A stretch of 33,464 bases of DNA from Gammaproteobacteria bacterium. GTDB taxonomy: Bacteria; Pseudomonadota; Gammaproteobacteria; Steroidobacterales; Steroidobacteraceae. Of this stretch, positions 16,598 to 22,264 are shown piece after piece (position 1 is the stretch's first letter; every line of letters begins with the position of its first letter). Below the pieces are notes generated by a model. It searched no databases. It saw nothing but the letters and a program-made list of their open reading frames with translations, and was not told the DNA's origin. The DNA lies in the NCBI GenBank assembly GCA_003132425.1, contig PKXS01000124.1:12343-45806 (forward strand), written 5' to 3'. Both the position numbers and the translations under genes were made by a program.

Positions 16598-16668
16598 GTG
16601 CTGGGGATGCGCCGATCGAGAGTTGCCACCACCCATGGCGTGGTGCATTGTGAGAAACACTTAATTCC

Positions 16669-16674
16669 AGGAGA
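16669..16674 (+). promoter_or_regulatory. Ribosome binding site of the OsmC-like gene
   Basis: AGGAGA sits four bases before the ATG at 16679 and fixes that start. The longer open frame back to 16598 has no such signal. Confidence 0.65.
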
Positions 16675-16678
16675 TCTC

Positions 16679-17116
16679 ATGAGCGACAAGACCGCGAGCG
16701 TGCACTGGGAAGGCCGGGGCAAGAAAGGCGTCGGTAAGATAAGCACCCAAACCGATGCCTTGAAGTCGTATCCCTACGGATACGGAAGCCGATTTGAGGA
16801 CGATCGGCGCGGCACCAATCCCGAGGAGCTATTGGCCGCGGCCCATGCCGCATGCTTTACCATGGCGTTTTCCTTTGCCTGCGATGCCGCGGGCTTTGCC
16901 ACTACCGCCGTCGACACGCAGGCCAGCGTGCGATTGGTGATGAAGGGCGGCGGATTCCTGATCGAGCACATCGACTTGCGGCTGGAGGCAAACGTTCCCG
17001 GCATCGACGAGGCCGCGTTTCAGAAGATCGCCGCGGGTGCAAAGAAGGATTGTCCTCTGTCAAAGGCCTTGGCCGCCGTGCCGGAGATTTCGCTCAGTGC
17101 GGTGTTGCGAAAATAG
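16679..17116 (+). CDS. OsmC-family peroxiredoxin
   Basis: A 145-residue thiol peroxidase of the OsmC group, which reduces organic hydroperoxides in the cytosol. The two active cysteines are C59 in HAACFTMAFSFAC and C125 in KKDCPLSKAL. The N-terminal HWEGRGKKGVGKIST and GTNPEELLAAAHAACF are family signatures. Start is ATG 16679 with AGGAGA upstream. It ends flush against the convergent DUF1648-like gene. Regulation is not evident from sequence. Confidence 0.92.
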   Translation: MSDKTASVHWEGRGKKGVGKISTQTDALKSYPYGYGSRFEDDRRGTNPEELLAAAHAACFTMAFSFACDAAGFATTAVDTQASVRLVMKGGGFLIEHIDLRLEANVPGIDEAAFQKIAAGAKKDCPLSKALAAVPEISLSAVLRK

Positions 17117-20258: not shown

Positions 20259-20690
20259 TCAAACCAATGCGCCGAGATTGCGTCGAAGGCTATTGCCGTT
20301 TGCACCCGGGCGAGCTTCCAGACTCGCGTGCGTGCGTTCCCAAACGGGAACAGCCTTCGACAACAACGTGATTCCGCCGGGGGTGAGAGTCAGTAGGCGG
20401 CTACGGCGGTCCGCTTTATCGGCAGCGGTTTTGACCAAGCCGCGGCGTTCCAGCGGCTTGAGTGCGGCGGTCAGCGTCGTGCGATCCATCACCAGCAATG
20501 CTGCAACCGACCCGATGCTCGGCGGGCGGGGCCGGTTCAGGGACATCATCAGCGAGAATTGGCCGCTCGTCAGACCGAGCGGTCGCAACGCCTCGTCGAA
20601 ACGGCGCGCCAGCGCTCGCGCCGCGCGTTGCACGTGCAGGCAGAGGCAATGATCGCGTACCCGCAGAGTGGTCTTGAAGGGGATTGACAT
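20259..20690 (-). CDS. MarR-family transcriptional regulator
   Basis: A 143-residue winged-helix regulator that normally dimerises and releases DNA on binding a small phenolic or on thiol oxidation. The DNA-binding region is GLTSGQFSLMMSL, SIGSVAALLVMDRTTLTAALKPLERRGLVKT-like, then the wing DKADRRSRLLTLT. Cysteines are present near the N-terminus (CLCLHVQRA), so redox sensing is possible. It is divergent from the DUF899 gene, and a palindrome in the shared promoter is the likely operator. ATG at 20688-20690 lies only five bases from its predicted -10 box, so the mRNA may be leaderless. Confidence 0.92.
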   Translation of the reverse strand: MSIPFKTTLRVRDHCLCLHVQRAARALARRFDEALRPLGLTSGQFSLMMSLNRPRPPSIGSVAALLVMDRTTLTAALKPLERRGLVKTAADKADRRSRLLTLTPGGITLLSKAVPVWERTHASLEARPGANGNSLRRNLGALV

Positions 20691-20712
20691 GTCTCATATA
20701 AGTTGATATCAA
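20684..20712 (+). promoter_or_regulatory. Promoter for the DUF899-VOC pair
   Basis: A perfect -35 TTGACA (20684-20689), a 17-base spacer and the -10 TATCAA (20707-20712). Transcription would start near 20719, giving a leader of about 26 bases that includes the GGGAGA ribosome site of the ATG at 20746. The -10 lies in the operator palindrome. Confidence 0.6.
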
Positions 20713-20724
20713 CGTATTTGTCAA
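20696..20724 (-). promoter_or_regulatory. marR promoter
   Basis: On the minus strand: -35 TTGACA (20719-20724), 17-base spacer (20702-20718), -10 TTATAT (20696-20701). The operator palindrome lies wholly inside the spacer. The expected start site falls at or next to the marR ATG. Confidence 0.65.
20698..20717. promoter_or_regulatory. Likely MarR operator palindrome
   Basis: GTTGATATCAAC (20702-20713) is a perfect 12-bp palindrome. Skipping one unpaired position each side, ATA and TAT extend it to 20 bp. Its size and place between divergent promoters next to a marR gene fit MarR binding, which would repress both genes. Confidence 0.7.
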
Positions 20725-20745
20725 GTTGGCATTGGGAGAATCGGC

Positions 20746-21510
20746 ATGCAGCACAACCGCATCGTATCGCGCGAGGAATGGCTTACCGAGCGCCAGGCGC
20801 TTCTCGCTCACGAGAAGGAAGCCACCCACTTGCGCGACAAGGTAAACGCCGAACGGCTGGCTTTGCCGTGGGTGAGGGTGGATGAGAACTATTTCTTCGA
20901 TACTTCCAAAGGCAGGAAATCGTTGAGCGAACTGTTCGACGGCCGCACGCAGCTCATCGTCTACCACTTCATGCTGGGCCCAGGCTGGGCCGCGGGTTGC
21001 CCCGGCTGCTCATTTCTCGCCGATCATATCGACGGCGCGCTCGCTCACCTACAGCACCATGACGTGACCATGATTGGCATATCGCGCGCGCCGCTGTCGG
21101 AAATCCAGGCCTACCAGCGGCGCATGGGTTGGCGCTTTCCCTGGGTCTCGGCCAACGGCTGCGACTTCAATCATGACTATCATGTCTCCTTCACCCAGGA
21201 GGAGCTCGCGGCAGGGAAGGTCTTCTACAATTTCACGCAAACCGACAGCGCCGAAGCGAATGATGAGCTGCCGGGCCTCAGCGCCTTCTACAAGGACGAG
21301 GCGGGCACAGTCTTTCACACCTACTCGAGCTATGCGCGCGGGCCCGAGGAGCTGATCGGCACTCTGATGATCCTCGATCGAGCGCCCAAGGGCCGCAACG
21401 AAGGGACCACCATGGACTTCGTGCGCCGGCACGACGAATACGAGGCCCTGCCGCGCGCGAAGCATTTAAATCCAACCCCGGAGTTAGCCCATGTCCAGCA
21501 CCGTCAGTAA
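20746..21510 (+). CDS. DUF899-family thioredoxin-like protein
   Basis: A 254-residue protein of the DUF899 family, which has a thioredoxin-like fold. The motif GWAAGCPGCSFLADHIDG carries C85-x-x-C88, and ISRAPLSEIQAYQRRMGW and FPWVSANGCDFNHDYHVSF are family hallmarks. No signal peptide, so probably cytosolic. The exact reaction is unknown. GGGAGA precedes the ATG. It is divergent from marR and probably controlled by it; its last 20 bases overlap the VOC gene, so the two are one transcript. Confidence 0.88.
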   Translation: MQHNRIVSREEWLTERQALLAHEKEATHLRDKVNAERLALPWVRVDENYFFDTSKGRKSLSELFDGRTQLIVYHFMLGPGWAAGCPGCSFLADHIDGALAHLQHHDVTMIGISRAPLSEIQAYQRRMGWRFPWVSANGCDFNHDYHVSFTQEELAAGKVFYNFTQTDSAEANDELPGLSAFYKDEAGTVFHTYSSYARGPEELIGTLMILDRAPKGRNEGTTMDFVRRHDEYEALPRAKHLNPTPELAHVQHRQ

Positions 21511-22264
21511 TTTCGTTTGGTACGACTTGATGACCACCGATACCGCCGCTGCGGAATCCTTTTATCGCGAAGTTGTCGGTTGGCGCACGGCCGATTCCGG
21601 CCTGACCGACCGGAGCTACAGCATTCTGAGCGCCGGCGAGAATCCGGTGGGCGGGTTAATGCCGATACCGAAGAATGTCCAGGACGCCGGCGGGAGTCCC
21701 CGCTGGATGGGCTACGTCGGCGTGGGCAATGTCGATGAGCATGCCGCGCGCGCGCAGAAGTCCGGCGGCGCCATCCACCGCGCGCCCGAGAATATTCCCG
21801 GCGTCGGCCGCTTTGCGATCGTCAGCGATCCCCAAGGGGCGACCTTCGCGCTCTTCCAAGGTTCACCCGGCGCCCAGGCGCCGTCCGTGCCGCCCGGCAC
21901 GCTGGGTCATGTCGGCTGGAATGAGCTGTACGCGGTCAACTGGCAAGAGGCGTTCGCCTTTTATTCCGGCCAGTTCGGATGGCGGAAAGATCAAGCGGTC
22001 GACATGGGTCCCATGGGCACCTATCAAACTTTCGCGGCCGGCGGTCCTGCGATCGGCGGGATGATGACCAGACCCCAAGCGTCGTCCGCCCCTTCTTGGC
22101 TGTTTTACTGGAATGTCGAGGGCATCGATGCGGCGGTGGCGCGTGTGACAGCGATGGGCGGCAAAGTGCTCCACGGCCCTCAGCAGGTTCCGGGCGGAAG
22201 CTGGATAATCCAGTGCTCCGATCCGCAGGGTGCAATGTTCGCGCTCGTCGCCATGCATCGCTGA
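21491..22264 (+). CDS. Two-domain VOC (glyoxalase-like) protein
   Basis: A 257-residue protein with two vicinal-oxygen-chelate modules. Module 1 (about 7-118) starts FVWYDLMTTDTAAAESFYREVVGWR. Module 2 (about 132-255) starts GHVGWNELYAVNWQEAFAFYSGQFGWR. Each ends with a strand of the DPQGAxFAL type (SDPQGATFALFQ; CSDPQGAMFALVA). Family members act as dioxygenases, glyoxalases or binding proteins; metal ligands cannot be assigned with certainty here. The ATG follows GGAG and overlaps the DUF899 gene. MarR-DUF899-VOC may respond to a toxic electrophile or antibiotic, but this is inference. Confidence 0.88.
   Translation: MSSTVSNFVWYDLMTTDTAAAESFYREVVGWRTADSGLTDRSYSILSAGENPVGGLMPIPKNVQDAGGSPRWMGYVGVGNVDEHAARAQKSGGAIHRAPENIPGVGRFAIVSDPQGATFALFQGSPGAQAPSVPPGTLGHVGWNELYAVNWQEAFAFYSGQFGWRKDQAVDMGPMGTYQTFAAGGPAIGGMMTRPQASSAPSWLFYWNVEGIDAAVARVTAMGGKVLHGPQQVPGGSWIIQCSDPQGAMFALVAMHR

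Follow-up and report, generated by a model that had tools for sequence, protein, structure and literature searches.

A conserved palindrome between divergent promoters as the probable operator of a MosR-like MarR-family regulator

A palindrome that lies between a marR gene and a divergent DUF899 gene, and overlaps the promoters of both, is very probably the operator of the adjacent MarR-family regulator, which would repress the two genes, its own included, until released by thiol oxidation or an electrophile. The window (the whole stretch of DNA analysed, 33,464 nucleotides) had earlier been read from its letters alone, and in that sequence-only reading a single MarR dimer was proposed to shut both genes, with autoregulation. 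The proposal is supported by conservation of the site, which recurs in a like arrangement across many bacteria that are only distantly related, by the phasing of promoter elements around it and by covariation of the site with residue 70 of the regulator, from which we infer binding and repression.

The operator and its conservation beside a MarR subfamily

The marR gene (20259–20690, minus strand) encodes a 143-aa MosR-like regulator, the MarR domain of which (PF01047) scored 35.3 bits against a cut-off of 24.6. Among solved structures MosR was its closest match by sequence and fold, and MarR structures were the best fold matches of its structure model (mean pLDDT 95.2); the structure-model alignment comprised 36 proteins, namely that of the window and 35 of loci L010–L089. 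The presumed divergent target, the DUF899 gene (20746–21510, plus strand; Pfam DUF899 at E 3.6e-92, AhpC-TSA at E 4.3e-06), encodes a thioredoxin-like protein with a CPGC motif and is preceded by the likely ribosome-binding site GGGAGA (20734–20739, plus strand), its leader and ribosome-binding site appearing normal in the window. A VOC/glyoxalase gene (21491–22264, plus strand; Pfam Glyoxalase) overlaps the 3' end of DUF899 by 20 bp (21491–21510), which suggests translational coupling in one operon, and the two genes are probably co-transcribed. Of the 64 loci with a divergent DUF899, the window among them, 46 had a VOC homologue farther along the same strand within the DNA examined. An OsmC-family gene about 4 kb away (16598–17116) lacks this operator.

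Proteins of the MarR family typically bind a palindrome of 16–20 bp near their own promoter, a pattern that the putative site and its covariation with the regulator would fit. In the window the operator core GTTGATATCAAC (20702–20713) is a perfect 12-bp palindrome; allowing one mismatched pair, the symmetry continues over 20 bp (20698–20717), and the flanking A/T positions are also conserved among relatives. The 12-mer occurs as a single exact copy both in the window and in the 4.08-Mb genome. When the window was shuffled 100 times, 48 of the shuffled sequences held a copy with at most two mismatches. Taken on composition alone, the palindrome is therefore weak as evidence; it is raised above chance because it is conserved. 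Three further 12-mers with one mismatch were found in the same genome, none with TTGAC at a spacer of 16–18, as well as one other exact 10-mer, on contig C124 inside a 559-aa frame and likewise without TTGAC. These 12-mer and 10-mer searches thus returned no second operator in the genome of the window, where the site appears to be a local operator only, and a regulon within this genome was rejected since the additional sites lack a phased TTGAC. Twelve plasmid records matched 20600–20900 at 60–80% identity, none of them across more than 80% of that span.

Relatives were located by MarR protein search alone, without use of the operator. The first set comprised 83 loci, made up of the best 80 of 278 relatives, two from an order-level search and the window. 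TTGATATCAA was found upstream of marR as an exact copy in 81 of these 83 loci and with one mismatch in the remaining two, whereas control windows of the same loci held it exactly in 0 of 1484 cases and with one mismatch in 5 of 1484. Class- and phylum-wide searches enlarged the collection to 197 loci, of which 180 were distinct after removal of 17 duplicates. The MarR was close in 144 of these, scoring at least 115 bits, and more distant in 36. Rows from the window's own genome (L001–L005) were left out of all counts, and L008 and L009 were left out of the 83-locus count. Among the close-MarR loci TTGATATCAA was exact in 135 and had one mismatch in 8, the exception being L132, which is cut short by the end of its contig so that 27 bases could be searched; among the more distant MarRs it was present within one mismatch in 4 of 36. 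The distance from operator to marR start was mostly fixed across relatives. Conservation of the palindrome beside marR and DUF899, which the sequence-only reading had looked to as a check, was therefore found, at 83/83 and 143/144 within one mismatch. The putative operator goes with the MarR subfamily rather than with the marR–DUF899 pair, since DUF899 is the divergent partner in only 64 of 147 site-bearing loci.

The distant MarR homologues at L009, L189 and L196 have a different upstream palindrome, about AGTGTATATACACT. One genome (G303) carries three close marR paralogues, L069, L080 and L098, with the exact operator at two and GTTGACATCAAC at L098. Within the order the gene has a patchy distribution: matches at E 1e-20 were present in 5 of 296 genomes, that of the window included, two of these distant (34–38%), and none of the eight same-genus genomes among those listed had one. 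Near relatives of marR were found in Alphaproteobacteria and Acidobacteriota, and taken together with the patchy occurrence this makes horizontal acquisition likely.

The outermost base pair of the 12-mer varies with residue 70 of the regulator, with which the recognition helix begins (70–82 in the model) and which is encoded at 20481–20483 on the minus strand as Arg. Arg70 accompanied G...C outer bases in 95 loci, with another outer pair in 8 of 103 Arg70 loci (T/A in one of these, L159), and Gln70 accompanied A...T in all of its 39 loci. His70 was found with C...C (3 loci) and Pro70 with T...A and C...G (one locus each). Arg–G and Gln–A are textbook base preferences. On the best tree, built from 126 of 151 rows after near-identical rows were thinned and with many forks unresolved, five changes of residue 70 were counted, one or two of them for Gln. 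An independent-pairs test of residue against base could not reach significance with so few events. The covariation is thus suggestive of the site being read by this MarR, and not proof of it, because the independent changes are few.

Interlocked promoters and the start of marR

Two promoter-like sequences had been described as interlocking within 41 bases, TTGACA-N17-TATCAA on the plus strand and TTGACA-N17-TTATAT on the minus strand, and both proved correct letter for letter. The predicted DUF899 promoter has its -35 TTGACA at 20684–20689 (plus strand), over codons 1–3 of marR on the opposite strand, and its -10 TATCAA at 20707–20712 (plus strand) within the palindrome, the TGA before TATCAA possibly making this an extended -10. 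For the predicted marR promoter the -35 TTGACA is at 20719–20724 (minus strand), a place at which TTGAC is conserved in relatives, and TTATAT is at 20696–20701 (minus strand). As described, the palindrome sits in the minus-strand spacer and overlaps the plus-strand -10. The assignment of TTATAT as the marR -10 held up only in part: the hexamer is present where it was placed and -10-like sequences occur there in relatives, but it agrees with TATAAT at 3 of 6 positions, and TATATG one base on (20700–20695) agrees at 4 of 6. The one operator thus overlaps both divergent promoters in the window sequence. A generic sigma-70 scan of the window reported neither promoter, which is not counter-evidence because TATCAA lacks the final T demanded by the scan and TTATAT has too few matches.

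The phasing of these elements was followed in 147 distinct loci chosen for a site within one mismatch, a set which informs on phasing and partners and not on the presence of the site. Facing the target, TTGAC lay 16–18 nt before TATCAA in 115 of the 147 loci, at exactly 17 nt in 104, and on the marR side it began 11–13 nt before the palindrome in 112. A phased -35 was seen on both sides in 96 loci and on neither in 16, and at other upstream positions TTGAC occurred in 9 of 11760 cases. The marR side carried a hexamer with at least 4 of 6 matches to TATAAT in 125 of 147 loci as compared to 36 of 882 control places, and in 120 of 147 the best -10 started one base earlier than the place of TTATAT.

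The first codons of marR double as part of the opposite promoter. The start codon of marR is at 20688–20690 (minus strand), and 117 of 147 site-bearing loci have an in-frame ATG or GTG at a distance of 23 nt from the start of the palindrome. The usual start of the gene, ATG TCA AA, reads TTTGACAT on the other strand and there constitutes the target -35. Serine at position 2 was encoded by TCA in 102 of 104 cases compared with 31 of 700 for the other serine codons of the same genes, a bias which points to selection on the DNA and not on the protein. The MarR of the window has four N-terminal codons fewer than its relatives (MSIPF as opposed to MSNAVEIPF-like), and the spacing is nonetheless kept.

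The marR -10 ends roughly 6 nt short of the ATG, a spacing at which the predicted transcription start falls on the ATG. In the 21 nt ahead of marR, AGGAGG was matched at five of six letters in 5 of 147 loci and at four in 27 of 147, against 45 and 191, respectively, of 588 control windows, none of which reached six. On the target side a match of 5 or 6 was present in 114 of 147 loci within the 90 nt after the palindrome, a longer window that is not directly comparable. The spacing from -10 to ATG, together with ribosome-binding-like sequence that is scarcer than in controls, makes a leaderless or nearly leaderless marR mRNA likely, from which the regulator would probably be translated.

Bound at 20698–20717, a MarR dimer would cover the DUF899 -10 together with part of the spacer in front of it and, in the marR promoter, the spacer and the upstream edge of the -10. 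With the dimer lying over both promoters, DUF899 and marR would both be repressed, marR by its own product. Even in the repressor-free state RNA polymerase should not use both promoters at once, because they are so tightly interlocked, with the DUF899 -35 in the first codons of marR, that they would be mutually exclusive.

Divergent partners, unlinked sites and a candidate regulon

The divergent partner of marR in the 147 site-bearing loci was DUF899 in 64 and a homologue of the window VOC in 8. The 74 remaining partner ORFs, which were picked mechanically, included DUF1428 (10), BNR (10), PhnB-like (8), glyoxalase (8), GST (8) and DUF1579 (4). In 18 genomes with Arg70 regulators (about 105 Mb) the 12-mer GTTGATATCAAC was found 34 times compared to once for a reversed control, and ATTGATATCAAT was found once. 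Eighteen of the 34 were marR sites (8 by comparison, 10 by coordinates or loci) and 16 were unlinked to marR. Twelve of the unlinked sites lay upstream of target-type genes, namely DUF899 (2), PhnB/3-dmu (2), VOC (2), GST (2) and one each of DUF1579, DUF1428, BNR and MacB-like, and in 9 of these 12 TTGAC was found 17 or 18 nt before TATCAA, pointing at the gene. The other four comprised L219, inside a coding frame, L221 and L224, without a recognised gene, and L226, before an AraC-type regulator; L221 also has a phased TTGAC. In some genomes, then, the predicted operator also precedes unlinked target genes. One genome (that of L078) contains six operator sites. Diverged DUF899 paralogues at L231 and L232, with 26–30% identity to that of the window, are unlinked to marR and carry the operator.

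Twelve genomes with Gln70 regulators contained 24 RTTGATATCAAY sites, of which 16 were ATTGATATCAAT, 2 were GTTGATATCAAC and 6 were mixed. Twelve of the 16 ATTGATATCAAT were marR sites by their loci. Judged from translations, no target-like gene was found at the 4 unlinked ATTGATATCAAT and 2 GTTGATATCAAC sites in these genomes, the former four lying within coding frames or before unrelated genes, and the two mixed sites examined (L245 and L246) lack TTGAC. A regulon in the 12 Gln70 genomes was consequently rejected, the unlinked sites not being at target-like genes.

No paper in the literature searched contained GTTGATATCAAC, none containing TTGATATCAA also mentioned 'MarR family', and no description of this operator was found there. 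Nor did any paper searched treat MarR together with DUF1428, and nothing found there on MarR together with DUF899 bore on this switch. We consider the chances even that the sites belong to a widespread, undescribed MosR-type thiol-switch regulon in Alphaproteobacteria, Acidobacteriota and others, in which, all taken jointly, TTGATATCAA would form part of the target -10, the target -35 would lie in the first codons of the regulator, the regulator mRNA would be leaderless and an Arg/Gln change at residue 70 would rewrite the outer base pair. If so, DUF899, DUF1428, DUF1579, PhnB-like, VOC, GST and BNR proteins would serve a common thiol or electrophile defence, which would give several families of unknown function a functional context. 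An exact putative operator and a predicted regulon are in this way provided for a common MarR subfamily, and with them a handle on DUF899, DUF1428 and DUF1579, which are Pfam families without assigned function. The loci also illustrate how a regulator residue and the DNA base that goes with it may change together, and how protein-coding codons may be held fixed by a second role in the promoter of the gene opposite.

The sensor, alternative explanations and known systems

The presumed thiol switch is formed by Cys15 and Cys17, the codons of Cys15-Leu16-Cys17 being at 20640–20648 on the minus strand. Cysteine was found at both positions in 83 of 83 regulators of the first set and in 143 of 144 of the close-MarR loci, aligned with the Cys-x-Cys pair of MosR. 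The pair is not tied to this operator, as it is common in more distant MarRs (29 of 36, a group in which 32 of 36 lack the operator). According to PMC5823404, an intrachain disulphide can form between Cys10 and Cys12 of MosR, and DNA binding falls on oxidation. By analogy, an oxidant or electrophile that reacts with Cys15/Cys17 would free the dimer from its site and so switch on DUF899 and the VOC gene behind it. Sensing of an oxidant or electrophile is suggested by the Cys-x-Cys, the match to MosR and the thioredoxin-like, VOC and GST targets, and we regard it as fairly likely to proceed via Cys15/Cys17.

Under the best-surviving alternative, which is possible though rather unlikely, operator and dual repression would be the same and a small ligand, such as an electrophilic metabolite or perhaps an aromatic acid, would act in the usual MarR pocket, the cysteines being structural or minor. 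The presumed VOC, PhnB-like and GST targets belong to families that act on small molecules, and most MarR members are ligand-responsive according to PMC5823404. On the other hand, the Cys-x-Cys is present throughout the first set in alignment with the MosR pair and the closest solved structure is that of a redox regulator, MosR, so that a Cys-x-Cys thiol switch is the more likely sensor. Alternatively, the MarR might repress its target and activate or leave alone its own promoter, the overlap serving mainly for promoter competition; this we hold to be improbable. The operator is centred some 18 bp ahead of the predicted marR start and falls largely within the spacer, which would suit such an arrangement. 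OhsR is a MarR protein. Some redox regulators do activate, OhsR among them to judge by a paper title. Against this, the operator ends on the very base with which the marR -10 of relatives usually begins, where a bound dimer should block polymerase, and the conservation profile has no prominent site at an upstream position like that of an activator. That the palindrome is the site of some other regulator, or arose by chance or for structural reasons and resembles promoters incidentally, is hardly credible even though a near match is expected by chance within the window alone and the generic promoter scan found nothing, since the site is held within one mismatch beside 143 of 144 close and 4 of 36 more distant MarRs, covaries with residue 70 and is kept beside many different divergent partners.

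The nearest known counterpart is MosR (Rv1049 of Mycobacterium tuberculosis; PDB 4fx0/4fx4), which shares the MarR fold and was the top sequence match (E 4.7e-18), with the MosR-DNA complex 4fx4 as the best structural match (38% identity, TM 0.79/0.84). Each protein carries a Cys-x-Cys pair where the first dimerisation helix begins, and the recognition helix reads DRTTLTA in the window MarR and ERTTLTR in MosR. Control of an oxidoreductase gene, given for MosR in PMC5823404, is a further likeness; the target genes themselves differ. The redox MarRs OhrR, OspR, MgrA and AbfR are similar in fold and in having a cysteine near the N terminus. OsbR was considered as a likeness and set aside, its cysteines being at 55 and 133 (PMC8567585). 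Unlike the window MarR, whose cysteines are two residues apart, Xanthomonas OhrR pairs Cys22 with Cys127' of the partner chain (PMC5823404). The match to the NCBIfam OhrR equivalog was weak (51.4 bits compared to a cut-off of 200), and no ohrA target was seen.

The MexR-type operator is GTTGA-N5-TCAAC. Its GTTGA/TCAAC half-sites are common to the window operator, in which they are 2 bp apart compared to 5 for MexR. MexR was not named among 53 sequence matches and by fold ranked below MosR (4zzl, rank 15). Divergent, autoregulated switches of repressor and target are exemplified by TetR-tetA and MarR-type pairs, with which the present arrangement shares one operator between two overlapping divergent promoters; unlike in these switches in general, the target -35 here lies within the start codons of the regulator and is conserved there across genera. 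The type of switch is accordingly ordinary, and what is added is the depth of conservation, the overlap of coding and promoter sequence, the pairing of residue and base and the shared set of targets.
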